In this document: positions 64-15,388 of the stretch, in pieces | How positions within the stretch are numbered: position 1 is the stretch's first letter | Layout of the letters: every line of letters starts with the position of its first letter | Assembly: GCA_005809105.1 (NCBI GenBank) | Contig: SYLI01000074.1 | Coordinates: 1 to 36,707 of the forward strand | Direction: 5' to 3' | From: Verrucomicrobiales bacterium | GTDB taxonomy: Bacteria > Verrucomicrobiota > Verrucomicrobiia > Limisphaerales > UBA1100 | DNA: 36,707 nt | Program-made: the position numbers and the translations under genes | The notes under the pieces: model-generated | The model's database searches: none | What the model saw: only the letters and a program-made list of their open reading frames with translations | Told to the model about the DNA's origin: nothing

Positions 64-1551
64 TTACCGGAGCCATTCCAAGAGCGGTTCGGGCCACAGG
101 CCCAAAGCCACCACCAGCACGGCCAGCATCACCAGCACCACCCAGGCGTTGGTGCCCACGCGCACGGGCGGCAGTGCCGGTTCACCCGTCACCAGAAATG
201 CCCGCAGCACCTTGAGGTAGTAGTAAAGCCCCACCACGCTCATGATGAGCGCCACAGCCACCAGCCAGGACCAGCCGCCGAATCCCTCCTCCGGCACCGG
301 TGGGGGTTGGAGGGCCGCGAAGAACAGGCCGAACTTGCCGATGAAGCCGCTCAGCGGCGGAATGCTGGCCAGTGACAGGACGAAAATGAGGAACAGCGCC
401 GCAATCCCCGGCATGGATTTCCAGCAGCCGCGGAAGTCGTCAATTTCTGCGTCGCGCCCCAGCTGGTCGCTGACCAGTGCCACCACCGCAAAGGCGCCCA
501 TGCTGGCCAGCGCGTAGGTGAGCACGTAGAAGAGCACCGCCACGCGGGAGGCGTCGCTGAAGGCAACCATGCCCACCAGCAGATAGCCCGCGCTTGCCAC
601 ACCGCCGTAGGCCAGCAGCCGCTTAAGATTGCCCTGACGCATCGCGCCCAGATTGCCCACGAGCATGCTGATGAGTGCGAGCACCGCGAGACCCGATGAG
701 AGCAGGCGCGACACCGGCGAGTAGGCATTGGGCGCATCAAATCCCGGCAGCATCAGCCCCAAAAGCAGCACCGTGCTGCCGAGCTTGGAGCCCGTGGCAA
801 TCCACGCCGCCACGGCCGTGGGCGCGTTTTGGTACACATCGGGCGCCCAGAGATGGAAGGGCACGATGGCGAGCTTAAAACCCACTCCCACCAGCAGGAA
901 CAGAAAGGCGACTCCCAAGAGCGGCGGCAAATGCTGGAGCGTGTGGATGTAGGCGGACACCTTCCCAAGGTTGAGCTGCCCGGTGACGCCGTAGAGATAG
1001 CTGATGCCCACGAGCAGGAACGCTGAGGAGAGCCCCCCGATGGCGAAGTATTTAAGGGCCGCCTCGGCACCGGCGCGCCGGCCCATGTCCAGTGCCGTCA
1101 AGGCGTACAGGCACAAGCTCAGCAGCTCCAGCGCCACGAAAGAGACCAACAGGTGATGGCTCGTGGCCAGAAAGCCGACACCCAGAGCGCTCAGCAGCAG
1201 CAAAGCGTATTGCTCGGACACATGGCCCGAGGTTGCCGGCCGTGTGGGAATCAGCTCCACCACCACCAGCGCCAGCAGGAACGCCGTCAGTTTGAAGAGC
1301 AGGCGCACCGGGGTGATCACCAGCTGCCCGTCGCCAATTTGCAGCTGCAAGAGCTGGGGGTCGCGCGAGCCCAGCAGCCCGGCCAACAAACCGCAGATGA
1401 GAGTCCACGAGGCGATGCGCGAGATGAGCCGGTGCCGCTCGGCGACATCGCGCCCTCGCAGCAGGATGTAGTCGGCACCCAGGCACAGGAAAAGCCCGGC
1501 CACCACCACCAGGTCGGGCAGCAGCGCGTTGAGCATGAGGTGGCCGTCCAT
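64..1551 (-). CDS. nuoN: NADH-quinone oxidoreductase subunit N
   Basis: 495-residue, very hydrophobic antiporter-like subunit of the complex I membrane arm, taking part in proton translocation next to NuoK. The key charged residues of the family are visible: Glu142 in TM5 (FVALELLSL), Lys226 in TM7 (GFKLAIVPFHLW), Lys256 in TM8 and Lys406 in TM12 (GFIGKFGLF). It is the last gene of the nuo operon, 7 nt after the second nuoM. No Shine-Dalgarno is seen at the chosen ATG, so translational coupling is likely; an ATG five codons downstream is an alternative. Product assignment is secure. Confidence 0.96.
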   Translation of the reverse strand: MDGHLMLNALLPDLVVVAGLFLCLGADYILLRGRDVAERHRLISRIASWTLICGLLAGLLGSRDPQLLQLQIGDGQLVITPVRLLFKLTAFLLALVVVELIPTRPATSGHVSEQYALLLLSALGVGFLATSHHLLVSFVALELLSLCLYALTALDMGRRAGAEAALKYFAIGGLSSAFLLVGISYLYGVTGQLNLGKVSAYIHTLQHLPPLLGVAFLFLLVGVGFKLAIVPFHLWAPDVYQNAPTAVAAWIATGSKLGSTVLLLGLMLPGFDAPNAYSPVSRLLSSGLAVLALISMLVGNLGAMRQGNLKRLLAYGGVASAGYLLVGMVAFSDASRVAVLFYVLTYALASMGAFAVVALVSDQLGRDAEIDDFRGCWKSMPGIAALFLIFVLSLASIPPLSGFIGKFGLFFAALQPPPVPEEGFGGWSWLVAVALIMSVVGLYYYLKVLRAFLVTGEPALPPVRVGTNAWVVLVMLAVLVVALGLWPEPLLEWLR

Positions 1552-1558
1552 GGCAGTG

Positions 1559-3040
1559 TCAGCGGGCCTCGTTGAGGCGGTCCACGATGAGTTTGAGGCT
1601 GGCCTGCATCTTGTCGGTCAAGAGCGAGGGGAACAGTCCGACCAAAAGCGACGAGCCCAGCAGCAATGCGCAGCCGGCGATTTCCGCCGCCGTCATGGGC
1701 TCGTAGAGGCCTTCCTTGTCCGAGCTCCCGGAAGCCACGCGTGGCCGAAAAAAAGCTTCGTGAATCTTCACAAGCGTGTACCCGAATGTCGCTACGACGC
1801 CCGCGCCCGCCAGCACGACCAGACCCGCCGACACCCACGGCGATTGCCACGCGCCCATGAGCACATGCAATTCGGCGGCGAAGCCGCTAAAGCCGGGCAG
1901 CCCCATCGACGCCAGTCCCGCCAAGATAAACACCCAAGCGATGACGGGCATGCGCGCGATGAGCAGATGAAATTCCTCCAGCTGGCGCGTGTGCGTGCGC
2001 GAATAAATCACTGCACCCACGAGCGCGAAGAGCAGCGCGCCGATGACGCCGTGGGAAAACATTTGCAGCACGGCACCGGTGAGCCCGGTTTGGGTCAGCG
2101 TCGCCAGCCCCAGCAGCACAAATCCCATGTGGCTGACGCTCGAGTAGCCAATCACAAACTTGAAATCCGTCTGGCGCAGTGCCACGAGCGCCCCATAGAC
2201 GATGTTCACCACCGCCAGCGCCGCCACCCAAGGCGCCCACACTTTGGCGCCCAGCGGCAGGAGGCCGATGGCCACGCGCAGGCAGCCGTAGGCGCCCAGC
2301 TTCATCACCACGCCGGCCAGAAGCATTGATGCGGCCGTGGGCGCAGCGACGTGGCCCGTCGGCGCCCAAGTGTGGAAGGGCCACATGCCCGCGAGCACCG
2401 CAAATCCAACGAACAGCAGCGGGAACACCACGTACTGCAGCGGCGCACTCAAGCTGGCCTGCGAGAGCTCCTGCAGGGTGAATGTGCTGGCGTTGGCGCC
2501 AAAGTAGAGCCCGAGCAATCCCAGCAGCACCAGCGCGCTACCCGCAAAGGAATAGAGCACCAGCTTCATGGCCGCGTAGTCCTTGCGCGTGCCGCCCCAG
2601 ATCGCGATGAGAAAGTACTTGGGCACGACGGCGATCTCGTAAAACACAAAGAGCAGGAACAAATCCCGCGAGAGGAACACGCCGTACACGCCGCCCACGA
2701 GCGCGAAGTAGTACGCATAGAACTCGTTCGCGCGCTCCTTGAGTTCCCAGGTGAAGAGCACCCCGCACACCGCCACCAGACCCGTCACCAGCAGCAGCGG
2801 CAGGCTGATGCCGTCGTAGCCAAACGCCAGCCGCGCGCCCAGGCTGGGAATCCACGGCCAGTCCACCTCGTCGGCCACGCCCGAACCGCCGTACCGCAGG
2901 GCGCAATGCAAGGCCGTGAGCAGGCCCAGCGAAGCGAAGGCCAGCGCCACCCAGCGGATCTGCCGCGCCCGCCCGGCGGGCATCAGCCCGCAGGCCAGTG
3001 CGCCTGCAAAACTAAGGATGAGGGTCAGCAGGGCGTGCAT
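1559..3040 (-). CDS. nuoM: NuoM-like subunit, second copy (lacks the TM7 lysine)
   Basis: 493-residue antiporter-like complex I subunit of the NuoM family. It keeps Glu135 (VFYEIAVVP) in TM5, Lys247 in TM8 (VVMKLGAYG) and Glu390 in TM12 (GFAAE). The TM7 position that is Lys in E. coli NuoM (AFAVKMP) is Leu216 here (GFAVLAGMWPFHTW); the codon on the minus strand is CTC at 2393-2395. An extra Lys141 lies six residues after Glu135. It begins 4 nt after the preceding nuoM stop. The two copies are strongly diverged, so this is an old paralogue, not a recent duplication or assembly artefact. Whether it pumps is open. Confidence 0.93.
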   Translation of the reverse strand: MHALLTLILSFAGALACGLMPAGRARQIRWVALAFASLGLLTALHCALRYGGSGVADEVDWPWIPSLGARLAFGYDGISLPLLLVTGLVAVCGVLFTWELKERANEFYAYYFALVGGVYGVFLSRDLFLLFVFYEIAVVPKYFLIAIWGGTRKDYAAMKLVLYSFAGSALVLLGLLGLYFGANASTFTLQELSQASLSAPLQYVVFPLLFVGFAVLAGMWPFHTWAPTGHVAAPTAASMLLAGVVMKLGAYGCLRVAIGLLPLGAKVWAPWVAALAVVNIVYGALVALRQTDFKFVIGYSSVSHMGFVLLGLATLTQTGLTGAVLQMFSHGVIGALLFALVGAVIYSRTHTRQLEEFHLLIARMPVIAWVFILAGLASMGLPGFSGFAAELHVLMGAWQSPWVSAGLVVLAGAGVVATFGYTLVKIHEAFFRPRVASGSSDKEGLYEPMTAAEIAGCALLLGSSLLVGLFPSLLTDKMQASLKLIVDRLNEAR

Positions 3041-3044
3041 GGTT

Positions 3045-4484
3045 TTAGTGCGCTGAAAACGCCAGCCAGTGACCGGGGGCCAACCCCGCCCACAGCACCA
3101 GCGCCAGCACCGGTGCCAGCAACAGAACCTCCTCGCCCGTCAGATCGGGCAACGACCCGCCCTGCGCGGGCGTCGGCCCTGTGAAGAGCCGCTGCAGAAC
3201 CGTGAGCAGGACCACCGCCGTCGCCAGCAGCCCGATCGTGGCGACGGCCGTGAGCGTGGGTGCGACAGCAAAGGCGCCCCCGAAGATCAAGAACTCAGCC
3301 GCGAATCCCGCCAGGAACGGCAGCCCCAGCGAGGCGAATGCCAGGATGTAAAACATCGCCGCCAGACGCGGCGCGGCCGCGCTCAAGCCCCCAAAATCTG
3401 CCAACCCGCTGCGGCCCGCCCGCTGTTCGATGAGGCCGGTGAGGTAAAACAAACCCGCTGCGGTAAGCCCGTGCGCAAACATCTGGAGAATCACCCCCTG
3501 CGTGGCCAGCCGCGGCACGTCCACGACGCCACCGGGGATGGCCAACCCGACGGCGCCCACCGCCAGCACACAGTAGGCGACGTGGTTGAGCGAGGAGAAG
3601 GCAAGCAGCCGCCGAAGCTGCGTCTGGCGCAGCGCCACGAACGCGCCCCAGAGGATGGTCAGTAGCGCCAGCACCATGAGCGTCTCGCCGTGCGCCGCCA
3701 GCTGCCGCGGGAAAAGCGGGATGATGAGGCGCAGCAATCCGTACACGCCCATCTTGGACATGACCCCGGTGAGCAGCATGGCGACCGGCGCCGGCGCGGC
3801 GGCGTAGGCAGGCGCCTGCCAGAGGTGCAATGGCGCCAGCGGCACCTTGACCAGCAACCCGGCCAGCACGGCGGCAAACACCCACCCGCCCGGATCCAGC
3901 GCGCCCGAACGCGCGCGTGCCGCGAGCTCGATGAAATCAAAGCTCTCGCGCCCGCCCCCGGAGAGAAAGAGAAAGCCCAGCAGCATCGCCACGCTGCCCA
4001 GCACCGTGAAGAGGAAGAAACTCAGCGCGGCGCGGTGGCGATCCTCGCCCTGCCCAAAGAGCTTGATGAGGAAAAACGCGGGCACCAAGGCCAGCTCCCA
4101 GAAGAGGAACCAGTGGAAAAAATTAAGTGCTGTGAAGGCACCAAACATCCCGCAGGCCTGAAGGGAGATGAGCGCGAAGTATCCACGCGGCAGGCTCCCC
4201 GGCGACGCCAGAATCGCCAGCAGCGAGAGCAGCGTCGCCAGCAGCAACACCAGCGCGTTGGCTCCATCCAAGCCCACGTGATAGTCCACTTTCAAGGAAG
4301 GCATCCACGCCACCTTCTCAGCGAATTGCAGGCCGCCGCGCGGATCAAACTGCGAAAGCAGGCAGCAGGTGATGACGAGCGACACCATCGCGCCCACCAC
4401 GGCCACGCGCCGCGCCCAATGCGAGGGCAGCAGCAGGATGAGCAGCGCCGCCAGAGCCGGCGCAAATGTCAGCACCGTGATCAT
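3045..4484 (-). CDS. nuoM: NADH-quinone oxidoreductase subunit M, first copy
   Basis: 479-residue NuoM family protein with all expected charged residues: Glu130 (LFWELALVP, TM5), Lys213 (LLVKVPLAPLHLW, TM7), Lys244 (VMSKMGVYG, TM8) and Glu397 (GFAAEF, TM12). The ATG at 4484 was chosen because it overlaps the nuoL stop as ATGA, the spacing used through most of this operon; the frame is open 18 codons further upstream, but those residues are not NuoM-like. With the following gene it gives the operon two NuoM subunits, hence four antiporter-like subunits (L, M, M, N) in total. Confidence 0.94.
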   Translation of the reverse strand: MITVLTFAPALAALLILLLPSHWARRVAVVGAMVSLVITCCLLSQFDPRGGLQFAEKVAWMPSLKVDYHVGLDGANALVLLLATLLSLLAILASPGSLPRGYFALISLQACGMFGAFTALNFFHWFLFWELALVPAFFLIKLFGQGEDRHRAALSFFLFTVLGSVAMLLGFLFLSGGGRESFDFIELAARARSGALDPGGWVFAAVLAGLLVKVPLAPLHLWQAPAYAAAPAPVAMLLTGVMSKMGVYGLLRLIIPLFPRQLAAHGETLMVLALLTILWGAFVALRQTQLRRLLAFSSLNHVAYCVLAVGAVGLAIPGGVVDVPRLATQGVILQMFAHGLTAAGLFYLTGLIEQRAGRSGLADFGGLSAAAPRLAAMFYILAFASLGLPFLAGFAAEFLIFGGAFAVAPTLTAVATIGLLATAVVLLTVLQRLFTGPTPAQGGSLPDLTGEEVLLLAPVLALVLWAGLAPGHWLAFSAH

Positions 4485-6385
4485 GTTAAAAGCCAGTGGA
4501 CGAACAGCCCGCCCAAGAGCGTGCCCAGCACGACCCACCGCAGGTAGCCCGGCAGGAAGCCCGATTGGAATCGCACGGCTGCGCGCCCGCCCTCGTGGAA
4601 GCGCCGCGCCAAGCCGTCCACGGCAAGCTGGTCAATGAGGCGGCCATCCACGCTCCGCGAAAAAAACTGCCCCGTGGCCTGCGCCAGCTCCTGCACCAGT
4701 TCCGCCAAGGCCGCCACCATCTCCTGCAGCAGTACCGCCAAAGCCGTCAGCCCGCTCCACAGGCGCCCCGCTGTTGCGGCGTAGAGTTCATCAAACCAGA
4801 GCTTGCGCTGCAAGGGCACCAACGCCAGCGGGTCGGGCGCACGCAAGTCGCGTCCGCTGTAAATCACCCAGCCCAGCAGCATGCCTCCCAACGCCACGGC
4901 CCAGCTCGTCGCGATGACCGGGAAGGGATGCGCGGCGTGGATCGCGCCCAGCTTGGCTTGCAAGGCGCCGCCAAAAAGTCCGCCCATGCCCAGCGCAAAC
5001 ACGGCCAGGATCACCAGCGGCACGGTCATCACGGCGGGACTTTCATGCGGGGCGTGCGCGCCGCGGTGGGCGCCGGCAAAGACGTACACGCACTGGCGCG
5101 TCACGTAGAGGGCCGTGAGGAGCGAGGAGAACGCGCAGAGGTAAAAGAGGGGGCGGTCGGCGCCGTACACGGCAACGAGCACGGCGTCCTTGCTGAAGTA
5201 GCCGCTCGTGTAGGGAAACGCCACCAAGGCCAGCGCACCGCACAGATATGCCGCGGTGGTGACCGGCATGGCGCGCGCGATGCCGCCCATCTTGCGGATG
5301 TCCTGCTCGTGGTGGCAGCCGTGGCTGATGGAGCCAGCACCCAGAAAGAGCAGCGCCTTGAAGTACGCGTGAGTGAAGAGGTGGTACATGCCAATGGCCC
5401 CGGTGGTGGCGGCTCCCAGCCCCACCATCATGAGGCCCAGCTGGCTCACGGTGGAGTAGGCAAGGATGCGTTTGATGTCAAACTGGCCCAGCGCAATGAG
5501 CGCGGCAATGAGTGCAGTAACGCCGCCCGTCCATGCGACGAGCGGCAGCGTGCCACCGGCTTCGAACAGCGGGAAGGTGCGCGCCACCAGAAACACGCCC
5601 GCGGCCACCATCGTGGCGGCGTGAATGAGGGCGCTCACCGGCGTGGGGCCTTCCATCGCGTCGGGCAGCCAGACGTGCAAGGGCACTTGGCCCGACTTGC
5701 CAGCCGCCCCGACAAAAAGCAGAAGGCTCACCAGCTTGGCCGCGCCCACGCCCCACACCAGCGTGCCCGGATCTTTCTCCAGCAAGCCCGCCCCCCCCGC
5801 GTACAACTCCAGCGTGCCCGTCTGGGTGAAGGCCACCAACAGGCCCAGCAGAAGACCCAAGTCGCCCAAGCGCGTGACGATGAACGCCTTCTTGCCCGCG
5901 GCCGCTGCCGAGGGTTTGTGAAACCAGAATCCGATGAGCAGGTAGGAAGCCAGCCCGACAATTTCCCAGCTCATGAAAAGCAGAAGGAGGTTGTTGGAGA
6001 GCACCAGCCCGAGCATCCCGGCGGCGAAGAGCGAGAGGTAGCAGAAGAACCGCGCGCAACGTGGGTCGTGCGCCATGTAGCCTGTGGAGAAGATGAAGAT
6101 GAGTAGCCCAACAAACGTGACCATCGACGCCATCAATGCCGAGAGCGCATCGAGCCGCAGGCTGAAGGTGATGCGGGTGCCACCCACTGAGAGCCAGTCG
6201 GCCAGCGGGAACACTTGCGCGTCTCCCGTCCATGCCTGCGAGAGCGCCCAAAGCGCCAGCAGCGCCGACATCGCCAGGGCACCGATGGCCACAGCCGCCG
6301 CCCGCCGGCCGTTGCGCATGCCGGCCGTGCAGAGTGCCGCCAGCAGCGGCAGACAGGGGATGAGGGCGAGGGTTGAAGCGCTCAT
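4481..6385 (-). CDS. nuoL: NADH-quinone oxidoreductase subunit L with extended lateral helix
   Basis: 634-residue distal antiporter-like subunit of complex I. TM5 Glu141 (MSWEIVGLASYLL) and TM7 Lys230 (GKSGQVPLHVWLPDA) are present. The C-terminal part has the usual lateral amphipathic helix followed by a final TM, but the stretch from FDELY (531) to GYLRW is about 89 residues against about 55-59 in E. coli-type NuoL. The extra roughly 30 residues (around 547-576, Ala/Leu/Glu/Gln-rich, no Pro) look like continuous helix. This matches an arm that must brace an additional antiporter subunit. It overlaps nuoK and nuoM by 4 nt each. Confidence 0.96.
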   Translation of the reverse strand: MSASTLALIPCLPLLAALCTAGMRNGRRAAAVAIGALAMSALLALWALSQAWTGDAQVFPLADWLSVGGTRITFSLRLDALSALMASMVTFVGLLIFIFSTGYMAHDPRCARFFCYLSLFAAGMLGLVLSNNLLLLFMSWEIVGLASYLLIGFWFHKPSAAAAGKKAFIVTRLGDLGLLLGLLVAFTQTGTLELYAGGAGLLEKDPGTLVWGVGAAKLVSLLLFVGAAGKSGQVPLHVWLPDAMEGPTPVSALIHAATMVAAGVFLVARTFPLFEAGGTLPLVAWTGGVTALIAALIALGQFDIKRILAYSTVSQLGLMMVGLGAATTGAIGMYHLFTHAYFKALLFLGAGSISHGCHHEQDIRKMGGIARAMPVTTAAYLCGALALVAFPYTSGYFSKDAVLVAVYGADRPLFYLCAFSSLLTALYVTRQCVYVFAGAHRGAHAPHESPAVMTVPLVILAVFALGMGGLFGGALQAKLGAIHAAHPFPVIATSWAVALGGMLLGWVIYSGRDLRAPDPLALVPLQRKLWFDELYAATAGRLWSGLTALAVLLQEMVAALAELVQELAQATGQFFSRSVDGRLIDQLAVDGLARRFHEGGRAAVRFQSGFLPGYLRWVVLGTLLGGLFVHWLLT

Positions 6386-6693
6386 GGTTCGCGCAACGTG
6401 TCGAGCTTCTCCAGATCCACGGTCTTAAAATGACGGTACACCGCAATCACGAGCGCCAGCCCCACCGCTACCTCGGCGGCCGCCACCGCAATGGCGAAGA
6501 GCGCAAACATCGGCCCCATGAGTGCCTCTGGGTTGGGGCCGAAGCGCCAGAAGGCGATGAAATTGAGGTTCGCGGCGTTGAAAAGGATTTCGATGGAGAA
6601 GAGCACGACGATGATGTTGCGCCGCGTGAGTACACCCAGTAGGCCGATGCCCAGCAGGATCGCCGAGAGGACGAGATAGTGATTGAGCGTCAT
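6382..6693 (-). CDS. nuoK: NADH-quinone oxidoreductase subunit K
   Basis: 103 residues with three predicted TM helices, the usual NuoK length. The two conserved membrane glutamates needed for the proton path are Glu35 (LFSIEILFNAANLNF) and Glu74 (AAAEVAVGLA). The family signature NIxVxLFSIEI is well kept. The start overlaps the nuoJ stop, and its own stop overlaps the nuoL start, both as ATGA. Confidence 0.96.
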   Translation of the reverse strand: MTLNHYLVLSAILLGIGLLGVLTRRNIIVVLFSIEILFNAANLNFIAFWRFGPNPEALMGPMFALFAIAVAAAEVAVGLALVIAVYRHFKTVDLEKLDTLREP

Positions 6694-7214
6694 GCCGGCC
6701 GGTCCTTCCCGGGTGGATCCTTCTCCGGCCCGTGTGCCACCGCAACGGCCCCAATGAGTGCGCCCGTCAGCAGCAGCGCGAGCACCTCCAGCGGCACCAC
6801 GTAGTGTTCCATCAACTGGCTGCCCAGCTGGCGGGCGGTGGACTGCGGCGCTGCTGGCGGCACAGGTGGCTCGCCGTTGAGCAAGGGCGGCAGCAGCAGC
6901 ACCACCGGCAGCGCCACGGCCAGCATCAGCCCCCAGAACCAGCCTCGCGCGCCCAGCCGCCGAAGGTCATCGCCGGTCACGTGCTCGGTGAGCATGATGG
7001 CAAAGAGCTGCAGAATGCCCACGGCGCCGACGTACACCAGCACCTGCACGGCCGCCACGTAGTCGGCCATGAGCATGACAAAGAGCCCCGACAACGCCGC
7101 AAAGAAGAGCAGCAGCGCGAACACCCCGTGAACCAGATTGCGCCGGCTGACCGCCAGCAGCGCGCCCAGCACCGCCACGGTCGACAGAATGTAAAAGGCA
7201 ACTCCCTCGATCAT
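6690..7214 (-). CDS. nuoJ: NADH-quinone oxidoreductase subunit J
   Basis: 174-residue membrane subunit at the hinge between the quinone module and the pump module. Visible are TM1 (VAFYILSTVAVLGALLAV), the conserved RNLVHGVFALLLFF segment, and a TM3 with MADYVAAVQVLVYVGAVGIL, the place of the pi-bulge region in the family. ATG 7214 is chosen because it overlaps the nuoH stop by 4 nt. The frame is open about 100 codons further upstream, but that stretch lies inside nuoH and is not NuoJ-like. The C-terminus ends in a short charged Pro/Lys tail. Confidence 0.95.
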   Translation of the reverse strand: MIEGVAFYILSTVAVLGALLAVSRRNLVHGVFALLLFFAALSGLFVMLMADYVAAVQVLVYVGAVGILQLFAIMLTEHVTGDDLRRLGARGWFWGLMLAVALPVVLLLPPLLNGEPPVPPAAPQSTARQLGSQLMEHYVVPLEVLALLLTGALIGAVAVAHGPEKDPPGKDRPA

Positions 7215-8344
7215 TCGGCGTAAGAATAAGTGCGCGGAGCTGCGTCGGCCCGATGCGATCGGCTCAACGCCACGGCCGCCCCGTAGAGCACCAGCGCGCC
7301 CACGGGCCAGCTGAGCCACGGCTTGGCAAGTTTCAGGGCCGCCGCCGCCACGAAGAGATTGAGCAGCGAGAGCGGCAGCAGGAATTTCCAGGCGAATCCC
7401 ATGAGCTGATCCACCCGCAGGCGCGGCAACGTGCCCCGCAGCCAGATCATCACGAAGATCAATGCGAAGATTTTTGCGAGGAACCACACGCAGGAGAGCG
7501 CGGGATACGCCGCCACCCACGGGCCCGCGCCGCCGCCCAGAAACAGCGTCACGGCCAGCCCGCTGACGGCGAAGATGGCCAAGTATTCTCCAAGAAAGAA
7601 GAGCGCGAACTTAAACCCGCTGTACTCGGTGAAGTAGCCGGCGATGATTTCACTCTCCGCCTCGGGCAGATCGAAGGGCGACCGGTTGGTCTCGGCCAGC
7701 GACGCGATGAAGAAGATGAGGAAGGCCGCCAGCCCCCACGGCGTGAAGATGAACCACTGCGCACGTTGCGCCTCCACGATGGCCTGAGCGTTCATGCCGC
7801 CGGCCGCCATGATGACCACGGCGGCAGAGAGCACGAGGGGGATTTCGTAGCTCACCATCTGGGCCACGGCGCGCATGCCGCCCAAGAGTGAGTATTTGTT
7901 GCGCGACGCCCAGCCGGCCATGAACACCGCCAGTGTGTTGAGGCTCGTGATGGCGAAGAACAGAAGCACGGCGTTGTCGAGCGCAGCGGCCTGCAACGCG
8001 CGCATTCCGGCCGTGGCGTAGGGCAGTTCCAACGGCAGCAGGCAGAGCACCATCATGGGCGGCACCAGCGAAAGAATGGGTGCCAGAAGATGCAGCAGCT
8101 TGTCGGCATCGCGCGGCACAATGTCCTCCTTGGCCAGCATTTTAAGCCCATCGGCCGCAGGCTGGATGAGGCCAAAGAGCCTGCGAAACCGGGTGAAGGG
8201 CAGGCTGATGCGGTTGGGGCCGATGCGATTTTGGATGCGCGCCAAGATTTTTCGCTCAAGCCACGTGGTGAATGCAAAGAGCGAGGCAAACCCCACCGCC
8301 AGCGGAACGGCAATCGCCAACAGATTGAGGAGCGTCTGAGTCAC
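7211..8344 (-). CDS. nuoH: NADH-quinone oxidoreductase subunit H (GTG start)
   Basis: 377-residue quinone-chamber subunit. Recognisable are the N-terminal LERKILARIQNRIGPNR motif, GLIQPAADGLKMLAKED and the acidic loop around SPFDLPEAESEIIAGY, which lines the ubiquinone/menaquinone entry region. The start is GTG at 8344, overlapping the nuoI stop by 4 nt. A clear GGGAGGT Shine-Dalgarno lies about 5 nt upstream on the minus strand (around 8349-8355). It sits between nuoI and nuoJ; in the E. coli order nuoH precedes nuoI. Confidence 0.96.
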   Translation of the reverse strand: MTQTLLNLLAIAVPLAVGFASLFAFTTWLERKILARIQNRIGPNRISLPFTRFRRLFGLIQPAADGLKMLAKEDIVPRDADKLLHLLAPILSLVPPMMVLCLLPLELPYATAGMRALQAAALDNAVLLFFAITSLNTLAVFMAGWASRNKYSLLGGMRAVAQMVSYEIPLVLSAAVVIMAAGGMNAQAIVEAQRAQWFIFTPWGLAAFLIFFIASLAETNRSPFDLPEAESEIIAGYFTEYSGFKFALFFLGEYLAIFAVSGLAVTLFLGGGAGPWVAAYPALSCVWFLAKIFALIFVMIWLRGTLPRLRVDQLMGFAWKFLLPLSLLNLFVAAAALKLAKPWLSWPVGALVLYGAAVALSRSHRADAAPRTYSYAE

Positions 8345-9030
8345 GCCGCACCTCCCGCCGTGGGCGCCGACGGCTCGGGCTTGGATTTCTCAGCAGCTAT
8401 TTCGGCCGCGGCCTTGGCTTCGGCGGCCTTCTTCTTGGCCGCGTCGGCAGCAGCCTGCTTGGCTTCCTTCTCGGCCTTTTCCTGCGCCATGCGATCGTCG
8501 CGCGCGCGCGCCTCCTCGGGATGGATGCGGTGGTAGTACTCGTTGGACTTGAGCAGCTGGTCGCGATGTTGCAGCAGGCCGCCAAAACGGTTGGCGGTGG
8601 AGAGCTCGAACTGGCTGTCCATGACGATGGCGTCAAAGGGGCAAACCTCGACGCAAATCTGGCAGCTCATGCAGACGGAGAGGTCGATGTCAAAGATCGC
8701 CGGGCGCTTGATGTACTTGCCCTGCTCGTCGTAGTCCTTCTCGATGTAGATGCACTGCGGCGGGCATTCGCGCTCGCAGATCTGGCAGGCCACGCAGCGG
8801 ATGCCTCCCATGGGATCAGCCCCGTCGTGAAGCAGGATCGGAAAGTTGCGGCTGTGTGCCGTCACGGTGGTGTCGGCGCGGGCGGGAAGCACTTCGGCGG
8901 GCGCACCGGGTTCCCATGCGTATTCCTTGGTGAACAGGTGGTGGCGCCGGTCGCGGTCGAAATAGGACCGCACGAAGTTTTCCAGCGTCACCGCCATCCC
9001 TTTCAGGATGCCAAAACCCAGCAGTCTCAC
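8341..9030 (-). CDS. nuoI: NADH-quinone oxidoreductase subunit I, 2x[4Fe-4S], with charged C-terminal tail
   Basis: 229-residue ferredoxin-like subunit carrying clusters N6a and N6b. Cluster ligands are Cys79, 82, 85, 89 (CVACQICERECP) and Cys120, 123, 126, 130 (CMSCQICVEVCP). The GTG start at 9030 is supported by a 4-nt overlap with the nuoD stop, a GGAGGT Shine-Dalgarno just upstream, and the family-typical N-terminal amphipathic stretch GILKGMAVTLENFVRSYF. After about residue 172 comes an unusual tail of some 55 residues rich in Ala, Lys and Glu, probably helical, absent from typical 160-180 residue NuoI. It may bind the electron donor or another subunit (speculative). Confidence 0.95.
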   Translation of the reverse strand: MRLLGFGILKGMAVTLENFVRSYFDRDRRHHLFTKEYAWEPGAPAEVLPARADTTVTAHSRNFPILLHDGADPMGGIRCVACQICERECPPQCIYIEKDYDEQGKYIKRPAIFDIDLSVCMSCQICVEVCPFDAIVMDSQFELSTANRFGGLLQHRDQLLKSNEYYHRIHPEEARARDDRMAQEKAEKEAKQAAADAAKKKAAEAKAAAEIAAEKSKPEPSAPTAGGAA

Positions 9031-10181
9031 CGGTCCACCTCCCCCAGCACAATATCCACACTGCCCAAGATGACGACAGCGTCGGCAATGGTGTGGCCCA
9101 CGCACAGGTCCTCGAGCACCGTGAGATTGATGAACGAAGGCGGGCGCACGCGGTAGCGGTAGGGTTTGGTGGTGCCATCCGCAATGAGATAAAATCCCAG
9201 TTCGCCCTTGGGCGATTCGACGCGGCCGTAGGTCTCCGACGCCGCGGGCTTGAACACGCGCGGAGCATTGCCCATCACCGGGCCCGTTGGAATGTCGCGC
9301 AGCGCCGCGTCCAGAATCTTCAGGCTCTCGCGCATCTCCAGCAGGCGAATCATGAACCGGTCGTAGCAGTCGCCGGCCGAGCCCAAGGGCACACGGAAGG
9401 CAAACCTCTCGTAGATGCCGTAGCGGTCCACCTTGCGGAGGTCATAGTTGACGCCGCTGGCGCGCAGCATGGGGCCGGTGATGCCGGCGTTGACCGCCTG
9501 CGCCCCCGACAGCACGCCGACGCGCTGCGTGCGCGCCAGAACAATTTCGTTTTCGCAGAGCAGCTTCTCAAACTCATCAAGAAAACGCGGGAAGGCGTCC
9601 ACCACGGCGCGGGCCCGGGCGAGCCAGCCCTCGGGCACGTCACAGCGCAGCCCGCCAAAGCGAAAGTAATTGCACATCATGCGTGCGCCGCTGGCTTGCT
9701 CGAAGAGGTCCAAGATGCGCTCGCGCTCGCGAAAGGCGTAGAGCAGCGGCGTGCCCAGCGCGCCCAGGTCGTTGAGGAAGAACCCCACGAGGCTCGTGTG
9801 GTTCACGAGGCGCGTGAGCTCCGCCATGATGACGCGCAGATATTGCGCGCGCTCGGGCACCTCGATGGGCAAGAGCTGCTCCGCCGCCAGCGCGTAGGCC
9901 CAGTTGTTGGTCATCGAGTTGAAGTAATCCAGCCGGTCGGTGAAGGGCATGCTGGCCAAATAACTCATCCCTTCGGCCAGCTTCTCGTGGTTGCGGTGCA
10001 GATAGCCAAAGACAGGCTTGAGCGCCACGACGGTCTCGCCATCGAGCCGGACATCCATGCGGAAGACGCCATGCGTGCTCGGATGGTGCGGCCCCATCGA
10101 GACTTCGAGCAGGCCAGTCTCCATCGCCGGCTGACGCACCAGCGAGTAAGACGCAGCGGCGGTCGCGGCGGCGGCACTCAT
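9027..10181 (-). CDS. nuoD: NADH-quinone oxidoreductase subunit D (49 kDa)
   Basis: 384-residue quinone-site subunit of the peripheral arm, related to [NiFe]-hydrogenase large subunits. The quinone-binding pair is visible: His37 in MGPHHPSTHGVFR and Tyr86 in FTDRLDYFNSM. Other conserved blocks are GYLHRNHEKLAEG, RVGVLSGAQAVNAGITGP and the C-terminal DIVLGEVDR ending. ATG 10181 overlaps the nuoC stop by 4 nt; the open frame upstream of it lies within nuoC and does not resemble NuoD. nuoC and nuoD are separate here, unlike the E. coli fusion. Confidence 0.96.
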   Translation of the reverse strand: MSAAAATAAASYSLVRQPAMETGLLEVSMGPHHPSTHGVFRMDVRLDGETVVALKPVFGYLHRNHEKLAEGMSYLASMPFTDRLDYFNSMTNNWAYALAAEQLLPIEVPERAQYLRVIMAELTRLVNHTSLVGFFLNDLGALGTPLLYAFRERERILDLFEQASGARMMCNYFRFGGLRCDVPEGWLARARAVVDAFPRFLDEFEKLLCENEIVLARTQRVGVLSGAQAVNAGITGPMLRASGVNYDLRKVDRYGIYERFAFRVPLGSAGDCYDRFMIRLLEMRESLKILDAALRDIPTGPVMGNAPRVFKPAASETYGRVESPKGELGFYLIADGTTKPYRYRVRPPSFINLTVLEDLCVGHTIADAVVILGSVDIVLGEVDR

Positions 10182-10756
10182 GCGATGATCACCTTGCCCC
10201 GCCGGTGCTTCTCCAGCACGTCGCCATGCGGCGTGGGTTCCCACTCGTAGTCCTGCGGCTCGGCGTAGTCCTTGCGCATGGGGTGGCCCGTAAACTCGTC
10301 CCACATGAGGATGCGGCGCAGGTCGGGGTGGCCCTCGAAGCTCACGCCAAAGAGATCGTACACCTCGCGCTCCTGCAGCTCGCAGCTGCGCCACACCGGA
10401 GTGAGCGAGACGGCGGCGGGCGCTTGGCGCGGAACGACCTGTTTGAGCACAAGCGGGCCGCTACGCTGCGCCACCGAGTAAAGATGGTAGACGACCTGCA
10501 GGCTTCCCGGCTCGGTGCGAACCACGATTTCCTCCGTGCCATCGGGCCGCTTGGACTTTTCCTTCACTTCCCTGGGGAGATAGTCCACACCCGTGACATT
10601 GCTGCAAAAGTCCCAGGCGCCGTGATCCGGCTGCGTGAGCCACTCGGCCACGGCACGGGCCAGTTCCGGCGGCACGATGAGCGCGCGCGCCGCCCCGTCC
10701 CACCGCACGGCGGGGAATTGCTGCAACACCGGCTCATGCCACGCTGGCGTGCTCAT
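10178..10756 (-). CDS. nuoC: NADH-quinone oxidoreductase subunit C (30 kDa)
   Basis: 192-residue peripheral-arm subunit. The diagnostic block is at residues 129-164: [20 protein letters not shown], then [14 protein letters not shown], matching the 30 kDa subunit signature. The start overlaps the nuoB stop by 4 nt. A short charged insertion ([15 protein letters not shown], about 62-76) interrupts the N-terminal domain; such loops are variable in this family. Confidence 0.95.
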
Positions 10757-11418
10757 GCCGTGGCCGCTTTCTTGGGGCGCGCGGGCTCGGTGTTGGGATT
10801 GGCGGGAGGGCGCCAGACCTCGGGATTGTACGGCGGCTCCAAATCCGTGCCGGTGAATCTGGGCACGGGATACTGCCGCCGCCCGGCGGTGAAGGCGGGG
10901 TCTTGCTCAATCCGGATGTTCAGGATTTTCTCCTGAAGATAGTTGAGGGCCTGCAAGACGGCTTCGGGCCGTGGCGGGCAACCGGGCAGGTACACATCCA
11001 CGGGGAGATACCGGTCGATGCCCTTGAGCACGTTGTAGCCTTGCTTAAAGGGGCCGCCGGAAATGGCGCAGGCACCCATCGCGATGACCCACTTGGGTTC
11101 GGGCATCTGGTTGTAGATGCGCACCACCTGCGGCGCCATTTTCTTGGTGACGGTGCCCGAGACAATCATGAGGTCCGCCTGCCGTGGCGACGGGCGGAAC
11201 ACCTCCGAGCCAAATCGGGCGATGTCAAACCGGGACGTGGCCGACGCAATCATCTCGATGGCGCAGCATGCCAGTCCGAAAGTGAGCGGCCACACCGAGC
11301 CGCCGCGGGCCCAATTGTACAGGCCCTCGACCGAGGAGAGCAGCACGCCGGCCTGCTCCAGCTCCGCGCGAGTGAAGCCGGGCACCTCCTGCGCCACCAC
11401 GTTGATTTGCTCGGTCAT
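10753..11418 (-). CDS. nuoB: NADH-quinone oxidoreductase subunit B (cluster N2)
   Basis: 221-residue subunit holding the terminal [4Fe-4S] cluster N2 that reduces quinone. The four ligands are visible: tandem Cys51-Cys52 ([10 protein letters not shown]), Cys117 ([10 protein letters not shown]) and Cys147 ([10 protein letters not shown]). Residues after about 190 form a Pro/Lys-rich tail. ATG 11418 gives the normal N-terminus (MTEQINVV). It follows nuoA after 38 nt, the widest gap in the operon, with only a weak purine-rich stretch before the start. Confidence 0.95.
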
Positions 11419-11456
11419 TTTTCGTCCGCGCCGACGGGGAAGTGCCCGCCTGCGCT

Positions 11457-11861
11457 CTACTTCCAGCTCAACACACCCTTGATCCACAGATAGGCCAGCC
11501 CCTCGGCCAGCAGCAGGACAAACACGCCCATGGCCACCAGGGCGCCCGTGGAGAGATTCGTGAAGGCCGCAGCCCAAGGGTAGATGAACACCACCTCGAC
11601 ATCGAAAATCACAAACGCCAGCGCGTAGAGGTAGTACTGCACGCGAAACTGCACCCAGGCGTCGCCCTTGGATTCGAGCCCGCACTCGAAGGGCGACTGC
11701 TTGATCTCACTGGGCTTGCGGGGCGCCACCAGCGCCGAGAGCAGAAGGGGCGCCACGGCAAAGCCCACCGCCACCACGCCCATCACCGCCAGCAGCAGGT
11801 AGCGCGCGCCGTGCGCATCATCTGGAGAAATCGCAGCCAGTTGAGGAAAAACGTCGCCCAT
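11457..11861 (-). CDS. nuoA: NADH-quinone oxidoreductase subunit A
   Basis: 134-residue three-TM subunit near the quinone chamber. Family motifs are [12 protein letters not shown] (the cysteine loop) and [19 protein letters not shown] with the membrane acidic residues. The ATG at 11861 is preceded by GGTGAGGGGG on the minus strand; an in-frame GTG at 11870 is an alternative. It is the first gene of the nuo operon, with a -35/-10-like element at 11885-11913. Confidence 0.93.
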
Positions 11862-11884
11862 CCCCCTCACCGAAAATCGCGGCG

Positions 11885-11927: not shown

Positions 11928-13373
11928 CTAGGCGGGACGCAGGTGTGCCAACTTTTCCTTGGGCATCTGGAAGGCGCGCGCACGGAAAATGAAGTCCACG
12001 ATGCTGCCCTCGTGCGGCTGCAGCCAGTCCAGTTGGATGGTCGGCATCGGTCCGATATTGAGGCGGTCGATGTTGGTCGCCTCCAATAGCTGCTGCGACC
12101 ATGCGGCATTCTCAGTGATGGCCGAGGCCACCAGCGTGCCGCTGATCTTTTCGATCATCTCCTCCTGCGGACACCGCACCACCGAGGCGAACGGGAACAT
12201 GTACTCGGTGTTGGCCATCTTGAGGTTGGGGCTCTCGCAGTGAAGGATCGTCGGACGCAGGTAGGCGCACCGCTCCATCTCCACCAGCCGCGGCCCGTAG
12301 CGGGCCGTGACGTGGGTGGTTCCGGATTCCTTGCAGCCTTCTTCAATCATCCCCCACACACCCTGCGCCTGTCCGGGGACGGTGAACGCCGCCAGCGCCG
12401 CCTTGGGATCCACCGGATCCAGCGGCTCCATGGGCCCCACGCGCGCCGCGATGGCCTCGGCGATGGCCTCGGTGTGGCGCGAGGCCCACACGCCCGAGCA
12501 GTTGATGCAGCCGCGCCCGCTGTTCTTGTAGATGGAGTCCACCATCAGATCCAAGTACTTCTCCCACTGATCCACCACGTCGTCGCCCAGCAGGATCTTG
12601 CTAAAACCCGGCCCGTGCACTTGCACACAGGGATTGCCCTTGTACTGCTTCACGGTCTGGGTGCTGCCAAAGATCATCACGCGGTTCACCCGGTTCACCA
12701 CCTCCGCACCCATTTCGCCGGCCCCCGGATAGATGCTGATGGCCTCGCGCGGCACGCCCGCCTCGAAGAACGCCGCGGCCATGCGGTAGGGCGTCCAGGG
12801 TTCCTGCGGGCCGGGCTTGAGCACCAAACCAATCTGCATCGGAATCACCGGCAGCCAGAGCGTGTGCACTCCGGGCGAGTTGGAAGGCAGCACCATGCCC
12901 AGCACCGGCGACTGCGCCTGATAGCTCACCGTCACCCCGCGCGACTCGATGCCGTAGCCGCGCGTGAGGATGTCGATGTCCATGCCGCGCGTGAGCGCGT
13001 CGAGGATCTTGTCCATGTTGGAGAGCACAAAATGGTTCTTCTCCATGTTGAACCGGCACATGTGCTCGGGCAGGCCCGTCGAGGCCGATTGCTGCCGTGC
13101 GAAGTCCGCCGGTGACTGCTGCCCGTCGCCCAGCGGCAGCGTGGCCTTGAGATAGAAGTCGGCCGCCTTCTTCATCATCTGCACCAACTTGGCGGCGGGG
13201 ATGGCCCGGAGCGCCTCGCGCGCCTGGTGCGCCTGCTTCATGTCCTTGGCAAGCAGGCCGGGATTGGACTGGCCCACGCGCGCCAGCACCTCGCCGGTGC
13301 GGTGGTGCACCACCTCGTCAAATTTCAGGCTCTCGTAAGGCTGGCCCCAGCGCAGAACAGGAATCGTCACCAT
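11928..13373 (-). CDS. Aldehyde dehydrogenase superfamily protein, atypical active site
   Basis: 481 residues with the ALDH fold order: the cofactor-domain stretch GMVLPSNSPGVHTLWLPV then LVLKPGPQEPWTPYR (Asn and the cofactor-binding Lys kept), a FGSTQTV block, and a candidate catalytic Cys in NSGRGCINCSGVW. The canonical LELGG segment with the general-base Glu is replaced by CVQVHGPGFS, so the Glu is missing, as in CoA-acylating and LuxC-like members. It may therefore be a CoA-acylating aldehyde dehydrogenase or acyl reductase; the substrate cannot be named. No signal peptide, so cytoplasmic. Start ATG 13373; the frame is open further upstream but those residues are not ALDH-like. It lies between a carbonic anhydrase and nuoA on the same strand. 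Confidence 0.75.
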   Translation of the reverse strand: MVTIPVLRWGQPYESLKFDEVVHHRTGEVLARVGQSNPGLLAKDMKQAHQAREALRAIPAAKLVQMMKKAADFYLKATLPLGDGQQSPADFARQQSASTGLPEHMCRFNMEKNHFVLSNMDKILDALTRGMDIDILTRGYGIESRGVTVSYQAQSPVLGMVLPSNSPGVHTLWLPVIPMQIGLVLKPGPQEPWTPYRMAAAFFEAGVPREAISIYPGAGEMGAEVVNRVNRVMIFGSTQTVKQYKGNPCVQVHGPGFSKILLGDDVVDQWEKYLDLMVDSIYKNSGRGCINCSGVWASRHTEAIAEAIAARVGPMEPLDPVDPKAALAAFTVPGQAQGVWGMIEEGCKESGTTHVTARYGPRLVEMERCAYLRPTILHCESPNLKMANTEYMFPFASVVRCPQEEMIEKISGTLVASAITENAAWSQQLLEATNIDRLNIGPMPTIQLDWLQPHEGSIVDFIFRARAFQMPKEKLAHLRPA

Positions 13374-13513
13374 AAGCTTAAAGTCGTGTTGCAGCACCCC
13401 TTGCACGGGACACTGGTGAATTGACCGGCGCGACTTGGCCCTAAATGGAGGGGGGTGGCAAACCCAAAATACTACAGGGGCATGCGCGCCCGACCCCGAT
13501 ACCAGATGCCGGC

Positions 13514-15304
13514 TTAATGCCGGGAGAGGTCCACAGGCCCCGACACGAGGCGCGATTTGAGCACGATGCGCTGCTGCAGCGCCTGCACGGGGCGCTTGTT
13601 CTGGCCGCCTGAAAGGAACTTGAGGGACCGGAATGCGTCGATCTGCTCGGACGAAAAGCTGATGGGCTCGCCCATCACCGTCCACATCACATTCTGCGTG
13701 CAAGGCGGCGTGGTCAATGAACCGCTGTAGCGGAAGTACGCGGGATTGGCCGGCAGAAAATCCTTGGGCCCACTCTCCCGGCTGGTCGTCACCAGGCGCG
13801 ACTGCCCCTTTTCCTTGGGAAGATCCTCTCCCCAGAACTGCCCCACATACGCATGGGGCGCGCCTTCTACAATCAACACCCCCACCACCGCCAGTTTTGG
13901 AAAGACGCCCTGAGCGCCTCCGGTTGCCGCGCCATGGCCGTGGCCGGTGGCACCGGCACCGGCGCCATGCTTGTCGTTGGCATGGGCAGGCGCGGGATTG
14001 GCCGAGAGCGCAATGCCATGATTCCCTCTTGTGTCGCGGCCGTGGCCCTCGTCGTGCTCCTGCGCCATGAGTTCATGAACCAGATGAACCTCCAGAGGGG
14101 CGTCCACTCCGTCGAGCTGGTGCTCGCTGCGATGGTGAAAATGAAACTGCTTGAGCAGATAGCGGTTGGTGACGCCACCCATGCCGATTTCCATGGTGCT
14201 GTTGCGTTCCACCGCGCGCACATCGGCTTGGATGGTGTGCCCGTTGTTGATGAGTGTCAGTTTGCAGGGATGGTAATCCATCCGAAGATGCAAATTGGCC
14301 GCCACCACGGCACCCGAAGGCTCGATATTGATGGGCGACTGGCGGTCGCCCCTGGCATCCGGCGCCAGCAAACCCCAGTTGGCCGGCCCATAGTCGCCCT
14401 CGTAGGCCCAGTGCGGCGCGGGCGCGTGCTCCCCGCCATGCGCGCTGGCGTGTGCGGCGTCGGCCGGTGCCAGTGCCGCGGCATAACGGGCCACCAATTC
14501 CTCCGCGCACCCCATCTCCACGGCGGAAAACCTCCAGCCGGCCTTCTCATTCCTAAGGTGCGCCGCCGCGGCATAGACGGCAGCGGCCTCCTTGAGGATG
14601 TGGCCCGGATCGCCCAGGTGCTTAAACCGAAGCAGGCGCCCGCGCAGCATGGCGCTGGCACCCTCCTCCCTGCCTTCGGCCAGTGCCGTCCACTTGTAGG
14701 CCAGATAGAGCGCGTCCAACTGCTCCTGAGCACTGGCGTCAGAACGGTCCACCTTGCTGATGCGCGCCACAAACTCTGCCGCCCGCTCAGCCGGCGGTTT
14801 CTCCGCTTCATGCGCGTCTTTGCCGTGCGAGGACTCCTCGTGCCCGCCCTTGTCGTGCGCGTCGTGCGCCGGTGTGGCCGGGCCGCGGGCGTCGGCACCA
14901 TGTGCCGCCGGCGCGGCGCCGTGGGCGGCAGGTTCCTTCTCGGCGTACTCGCGCGCGGCAACCGAAAACCATTTGTACGCCAGCATCAGAAACTGCCGCT
15001 GACTCCCATGGTCGCTTTTCGCGGACTCCGCCATGGTTTCCAGCCTCCTGGCCAGTGCCATCTGCGCGGTGGGGCTGCCGCCGCTGGCGCTTGCCACCAG
15101 CGCAGAAAGCTCGAGCAGCCGCGACATGTCCGCGCGGCTGATCTGCATGTAGAGGGTGACACTGGTGGCCAGCGTCACGCATGCCCCCGTGATGATGAGG
15201 GTAAGCCGACCAAAGATGGGCGCAGCCGGCGTCGCGTCCGATGCCTCGGGGGCGGCGGCGGACGTGGCGGGCTTTGCTGCGGCGGCTTTTGCTTCTTCTG
15301 CCAT
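13514..15304 (-). CDS. Membrane-anchored alpha-type carbonic anhydrase with Sel1-like N-terminal region
   Basis: 596 residues. An Ala-rich start is followed by one TM (about 31-52), placing the rest outside the cytoplasm. Residues 80-275 contain AYKWFSVAA- and AYKWTALAE-type helices resembling Sel1/TPR repeats, with a His-rich linker at about 127-168. An alpha carbonic anhydrase domain fills 298-596: RQSPINI, shuttle His356 (NNGHTI), zinc ligands His388, His390 (QFHFH) and His407 (LEVHLVH), and the SLTTPPCTQ active-site loop. CO2 hydration is therefore expected. An additional His/Gly-rich stretch (about 413-468) is inserted inside the catalytic domain. ATG 15304 chosen; no clear Shine-Dalgarno. 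The 120 bp upstream to 15425 is a divergent promoter region. Confidence 0.88.
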   Translation of the reverse strand: MAEEAKAAAAKPATSAAAPEASDATPAAPIFGRLTLIITGACVTLATSVTLYMQISRADMSRLLELSALVASASGGSPTAQMALARRLETMAESAKSDHGSQRQFLMLAYKWFSVAAREYAEKEPAAHGAAPAAHGADARGPATPAHDAHDKGGHEESSHGKDAHEAEKPPAERAAEFVARISKVDRSDASAQEQLDALYLAYKWTALAEGREEGASAMLRGRLLRFKHLGDPGHILKEAAAVYAAAAHLRNEKAGWRFSAVEMGCAEELVARYAAALAPADAAHASAHGGEHAPAPHWAYEGDYGPANWGLLAPDARGDRQSPINIEPSGAVVAANLHLRMDYHPCKLTLINNGHTIQADVRAVERNSTMEIGMGGVTNRYLLKQFHFHHRSEHQLDGVDAPLEVHLVHELMAQEHDEGHGRDTRGNHGIALSANPAPAHANDKHGAGAGATGHGHGAATGGAQGVFPKLAVVGVLIVEGAPHAYVGQFWGEDLPKEKGQSRLVTTSRESGPKDFLPANPAYFRYSGSLTTPPCTQNVMWTVMGEPISFSSEQIDAFRSLKFLSGGQNKRPVQALQQRIVLKSRLVSGPVDLSRH

Positions 15305-15388
15305 GCCAGAATATTCACCAGTCAATCGGCATTTTCCATCCCAACTTAACTGCATCGAGGCGGCGGGCTGGTGCCCGGCGTGAAACTG

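Follow-up and report, generated by a model that had tools for sequence, protein, structure and literature searches.

We show, from alignments and a phylogenetic tree, that the second NuoM (M2) of a 2M complex I cassette belongs to a branch of the NuoM family in which the TM7 ion-pair lysine was lost a single time, and that this lineage also supplies the single NuoM of ordinary complex I in several phyla. M2, the extra pump subunit, probably still pumps. The best overall explanation, which we hold with moderate confidence, is that a substitute basic residue replaces the TM7 lysine and that M2 still moves a proton. The cassette lies in a window of 36,707 nucleotides (the whole stretch of DNA analyzed) from a Verrucomicrobiales bacterium.

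The window encodes a 2M complex I

The nuo genes occupy the minus strand of positions 64 to 11870 in the order A-B-C-D-I-H-J-K-L-M1-M2-N. The cassette is made up as follows.

6382 to 11870, minus strand: nuoK, J, H, I, D, C, B and A (from low to high coordinate), the remainder of the cassette
4481 to 6385, minus strand: nuoL, its lateral helix lengthened as is typical of 2M enzymes (tail at 4484 to 4807, 108 aa)
3045 to 4538, minus strand: nuoM1, the first NuoM, of a separate NuoM lineage, with the TM7 Lys kept (codon 3846 to 3848); the start is probably closer to 4484
1559 to 3040, minus strand: nuoM2, the second NuoM, 493 aa, of the lineage without the TM7 Lys (TIGR01972, AF2 model and tree)
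64 to 1551, minus strand: nuoN (TIGR01770, 341 bits)

Both nuoM1 and nuoM2 exceed the TIGR01972 (NDH_I_M) cut-off, and the nuoM2 product scores 440 bits against a cut-off of 264, which places it in the NuoM family. The cassette shares these features with the 2M complex I of Chadwick et al. 2018, as described in PMC9040806, PMC7117926 and PMC6606698: the nuoL-M-M-N order, a second NuoM, and about 27 aa inserted in the lateral helix of NuoL. Measured from RKLWFDELY, the NuoL tail is 108 aa long. The length is 104 to 108 aa for 55 of the 57 2M cassettes; single-M cassettes mostly have 78 to 86 aa, including 78 aa in the second cassette of the same genome (contig C74, single-M). A few tails of 105 to 134 aa occur in loci classed as single-M, but at least one of these loci, L164, has an M1-type NuoM, so the class may be wrong there. 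At L164 (G166:C14:515200-524400), the M1-type NuoM sits beside a NuoL with a long lateral helix, and a separate M2 locus lies on the same contig. A further likeness is that the window cassette contains no nuoE, nuoF or nuoG; the Nitrospira moscoviensis 2M cluster is without nuoE, nuoF and nuoH (PMC6606698). That 2M enzymes move one extra proton per cycle is a proposal of the literature.

Leucine replaces the TM7 lysine in M2

Positions 2393 to 2395 read GAG on the plus strand and CTC on the minus strand, which is codon 216 (Leu) of nuoM2. The charged axis of M2 and the sites discussed below are encoded on the minus strand at these positions.

2636 to 2638, minus strand: Glu135 (GAG), TM5, equivalent to E. 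coli E144; invariant in M2
2618 to 2620, minus strand: Lys141 (AAG), TM5, equivalent to E. coli Met150; Lys in 105/105 M2 and in 0/139 NuoM that keep the TM7 Lys
2393 to 2395, minus strand: Leu216 (CTC), the C-terminal residue of TM7a, where E. coli NuoM has Lys234; Leu or Met in 105/105 homologues
2318 to 2320, minus strand: Leu241 (CTG), TM8, the His site of single NuoM without the TM7 Lys; Leu in 105/105 M2
2300 to 2302, minus strand: Lys247 (AAG), the central TM8 lysine, equivalent to E. coli K265 by alignment
1871 to 1873, minus strand: Glu390 (GAA), TM12, equivalent to E. coli E407 by alignment

Leu216 aligns without gaps with E. coli NuoM K234. In the M1, NuoL and NuoN of this operon, the residue aligned with it, again without gaps, is likewise the TM7 Lys. 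An earlier note, made from the sequence alone, had called this substitution, and codon and alignment agree with it. The note had allowed for another lysine in the same half-channel. We regard such a misalignment of Leu216 as hardly credible: the alignment is gap-free across the broken-helix motif in every comparison, M2 TM7 (residues 199 to 232) has no further Lys or Arg, only the usual His223 and His230, and we found nothing in support of this reading.

The AF2 model of M2 (mean pLDDT, 91.5) superimposes on solved NuoM and NdhD chains with Z scores of 52 to 55 and rmsd values of 1.6 to 1.9 over 465 to 489 residues. In the model, residue 216 ends TM7a, immediately N-terminal to the helix break. 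M2 resembles the canonical NuoM of E. coli, Paracoccus and T. thermophilus (Nqo13) in its fold, the TM5 Glu, the central TM8 Lys (Lys247), the conserved His (His304) and a TM12 Glu rather than Lys (Glu390). It differs from them in having Leu for the TM7 ion-pair Lys, so that Glu135 is kept without its usual partner, and in having a new TM5 Lys. The retention of Glu135, Lys247 and Glu390 and the noncanonical nature of Lys141 had both been read correctly in the earlier note. Lys141 was also said there to lie two turns after Glu135; it is indeed on the same helix, but the spacing is i+6, or about 1.7 turns.

Leu216 and Lys141 are fixed in 2M cassettes

A first contig scan yielded 80 loci from Verrucomicrobiota and Acidobacteriota. 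Lys141, Glu135, Lys247 and His304 are present in every M2 of these loci, and residue 216 is Leu or Met. Among cultivated organisms, Terracidiphilus gabretensis has the 2M cassette (locus L067). With later additions, the set grew to 105 distinct M2 from the phyla sampled. In this set, residue 216 is Leu in 103 and Met in 2, residue 141 is always Lys, and residue 241 is always Leu. Hence the check proposed in the earlier note, whether lysine loss and the TM5 lysine co-occur across 2M cassettes, came out positive without exception. Because 105 homologues are fixed for these residues, Leu216 is neither a sequencing error nor drift. Glu135, Lys247, His304 and Glu390 are kept in each full-length M2 examined. 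In all 54 cassettes compared, M2 is better conserved than M1, and it is the best conserved of the antiporter-like subunits L, M1, M2 and N.

M1 has the TM7 Lys in 93 of 93 sequences of the multiple alignment. Pairwise BLAST had suggested that some M1 are without it, but those Leu calls were spurious. Besides the TM7 Lys, about 90% of M1 (3045 to 4538 in the window) carry an extra TM5 lysine of their own, at M2 position 146 (E. coli Ala155).

These patterns bear on the possibility that M2 is a nonpumping structural spacer, which would lengthen the arm without adding a proton. K234 of E. coli NuoM is reported to be essential (PMC5061711, citing Euro 2008). HycC of E. coli formate hydrogenlyase, with Leu at this site, was unaffected by 18 substitutions, including E135A and K239A (PMC5061711), so an antiporter-like subunit can be retained although no role in pumping has been demonstrated for it. 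However, a spacer would not be expected to keep the rest of its axis invariant, to hold position 216 at Leu or Met without drift, or to be the most conserved of the four antiporter-like subunits. Lys141 is strictly kept in 2M enzymes and absent elsewhere, whereas HycC has no such fixed substitute. We therefore think a spacer role unlikely.

The TM7 lysine is also missing from single-NuoM enzymes

We searched 288 genomes of the phylum of the window and about 200 genomes from the phylum of an Acidobacteriaceae genome; other phyla were sampled through plasmid records alone. Leu at the TM7 Lys site also occurs in the sole NuoM of ordinary cassettes in Verrucomicrobiota, Bacteroidota and some Acidobacteriota. 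Outside M2, 73 NuoM are without the TM7 Lys. Of these, 69 have His241 on TM8, one has His one turn further (His245), and three have neither. They are distributed as follows.

Verrucomicrobiota single NuoM: TM7 Leu or Met, n = 64 (including the C74 copy); His241 in 61
lM group: TM7 Leu or Met, n = 5 (four Acidobacteriota and one from the genome of L046); His241 in 5
Bacteroidota: TM7 Leu or Met, n = 3 (Phocaeicola massiliensis, Bacteroides finegoldii and Prevotella nigrescens); His241 in 3
L157, a divergent Verrucomicrobiota NuoM: TM7 Leu or Met, n = 1; His245

The C74 single NuoM of the window's own genome (L176:8583-10208) thus has Leu at the TM7 Lys site as well. The Verrucomicrobiota single NuoM also carry His134 next to the TM5 Glu, and residue 246 is a second Lys in them. 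A search for Bacteroidota NuoM in viral contigs gave no match. Several near-complete genomes, among them G018, G085, G088 and G122, gave no NuoM match at E <= 1e-20 beyond the one without the TM7 Lys. This too argues against a spacer, since in these genomes the type found in M2 is the only NuoM matched.

The Bacteroidota sequences come from headless (11-subunit) NDH-1 and fall in the same clade as M2. They differ from M2 in that the enzyme has a single NuoM with His241 on TM8 and Met at 141, whereas M2 has Lys141. In P. nigrescens, the headless NDH-1 of Prevotella has a NuoM of this type; the headless enzyme is expressed in P. copri (PMC6560451).

The earlier note had implied a link between the lysine loss and the 2M architecture. 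That link did not hold, because the single-NuoM complex I of three phyla has lost the TM7 Lys too. With the lysine lost once in a lineage that also serves single-NuoM enzymes, Leu216 alone is not informative on 2M stoichiometry. Moreover, since the ion pair is absent from a whole clade of NuoM in ordinary nuo cassettes, it does not define the family. The change that is specific to 2M enzymes, within the phyla sampled, is the TM5 Lys141.

A single loss in the NuoM tree

We removed the trait columns from an alignment of 86 NuoM and built a maximum-likelihood tree from the rest. All NuoM without the TM7 Lys form one clade (bootstrap 100, SH-aLRT 99) that includes M2 and the single-M sequences of Verrucomicrobiota and Bacteroidota. 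M2 itself is a clade with support of 100/100. The sister of the larger clade is a Paenibacillus NuoM with K216 and H241 (100/94), a single sequence on a long branch. At minimum, the tree requires a single change each for residue 216 and for Lys141, but four for His241. It supports a single loss of the TM7 Lys; we take this change to be a loss because other antiporter-like subunits commonly have the lysine. The simplest order is that His241 was gained, the TM7 Lys was then lost, and His241 was later swapped for Lys141 in M2. Because we found just one independent loss of the TM7 Lys among NuoM, the coupling of this loss to the substitutes rests on few evolutionary events, and an independent-pairs test of this coupling had no power.

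M1 lies in another clade than M2, and a tree constrained to join M1 and M2 in one clade was rejected (delta lnL, 82; AU p, 0.00037). Therefore, the two are not sister groups, and an origin of M1 and M2 as tandem duplicates is ruled out.

Candidate substitutes for the TM7 lysine

Lys141 occurs in none of the 139 NuoM with the TM7 Lys, and His241 in just one of them, that of Paenibacillus. Lys141 and His241 are mutually exclusive in every sequence seen. In the AF2 model, TM5 spans residues 127 to 148 and TM8 residues 235 to 260, and Lys141 and position 241 are each 6 to 7 residues from the helix ends. By the known NuoM topology, these ends would face the N side. Position 240 of M2 corresponds to E. 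coli Asp258, and position 230 to His248. Both are on the N-side proton path of E. coli NuoM, K312-D258-H248-K265 (PMC13324432), and in T. thermophilus His218 and Asp228 are likewise on the N-side path (PMC11496545). Position 241 thus adjoins a path residue. From this position and the similar depth of the two sites, we infer that both stand in for the TM7 Lys inside the N-side half-channel.

We favor a model in which the charge has moved into the N-side half of M2 over one in which pumping was lost. The earlier note had left both options standing. Relocation gains from the coupling of Lys141 in 105 of 105 M2, the alternative His241 or His245 in related NuoM, the invariant axis and the high conservation of M2; loss of pumping fits much worse. 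In the proposed mechanism, the substitute residue would lie next to the TM7 break, within the N-side half of M2 or its relatives. Lys141, or the His at position 241, may serve as the new ion-pair partner of Glu135, may act as a proton-loading and gating site that feeds the central Lys247, or may do both. M2 would then move one proton per cycle through a rewired N-side half-channel.

Besides the single loss, the HycC leucine and the reported need for E. coli K234, two observations count against relocation. In an ideal helix, i+6 on TM5 is a different face from that of Glu135, and three Verrucomicrobiota NuoM (L152, L163 and L166) have neither the TM7 Lys nor either substitute. The latter observation, together with the TM12 Lys present in the NuoN of the 2M cassette, would also suit a reading in which M2 pumps, Lys141 and His241 mark lineages and act in another way (in helix packing or at a subunit interface), and Glu135 is served otherwise, for example by the TM12 Lys of NuoN. 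However, packing is hard to invoke for two basic residues that lie at comparable depth on the helices flanking TM7 and exclude each other. We judge this reading quite improbable and retain relocation of the charge as the preferred explanation. In L152, L163 and L166, the central TM8 Lys is shifted by one residue (Lys246-Gln247), and TM5 has an additional Glu (MEFEVL).

Relation to known systems

The 2M complexes were already known, as were the insertion in NuoL and the leucine of HycC. HycC is like M2 in having Leu208 at the NuoM K234 site (PMC5061711; we confirmed the leucine), in keeping the Glu and the central Lys, and in a nearly identical local motif (GFGLLAGIIPLHGW). It differs in being a hydrogenase subunit and in having neither Lys141 nor His241. 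With Leu and neither substitute, HycC indicates that the scaffold tolerates loss of the lysine; substitutions of its charged residues left formate hydrogenlyase unaffected (PMC5061711). In the open-licence literature, we found no published account of a respiratory NuoM that is without the TM7 Lys, and none of a single origin for such NuoM or of the substitutes; the HycC case was the only one to emerge.

According to published descriptions, every antiporter-like subunit conserves the TM7 Lys, and in "electrostatic wave" models complex I is switched when the ion pair of TM5 Glu and TM7 Lys opens (PMC9271201, PMC11496545). Respiratory enzymes with a lost Lys and alternative substitutes are natural experiments on this model. 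If relocation is true, the ion-pair switch, universal in current models, would be replaceable, and the natural variants would map the sites permitted to the charge. We consider the broader proposal evenly balanced: a large branch of bacterial complex I (that of Bacteroidota, Verrucomicrobiota and some Acidobacteriota, together with the extra subunit in 2M enzymes) may run a NuoM without the TM7 Lys by using a TM8 His or a TM5 Lys in the N-side half-channel. For the debate on 2M enzymes, Leu216 is removed as an argument for a dead fourth pump, and the 2M arm is shown to combine two distinct NuoM lineages.

Other features of the nuo loci

On C74, nuoE- and nuoF-like ORFs, judged from position and sequence, adjoin the nuo membrane genes. 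A second match to PF01512 (the NuoF family) lies outside the C74 cassette, on G000 contig C43:26158-26673 (L258). Its product may be the partner through which electrons enter the 2M enzyme, or it may belong to another enzyme. In the window, the NuoI-like protein (8341 to 9105, minus strand) has 254 aa and an Ala/Lys-rich C-terminal tail, and it scores below the NCBIfam NuoI cut-offs. Directly upstream of nuoA, at 11928 to 13703 and 13514 to 15355 (both minus strand), are genes for an aldehyde dehydrogenase-family protein (PF00171) and an alpha-type carbonic anhydrase (PF00194). The carbonic anhydrase has a long N-terminal extension.
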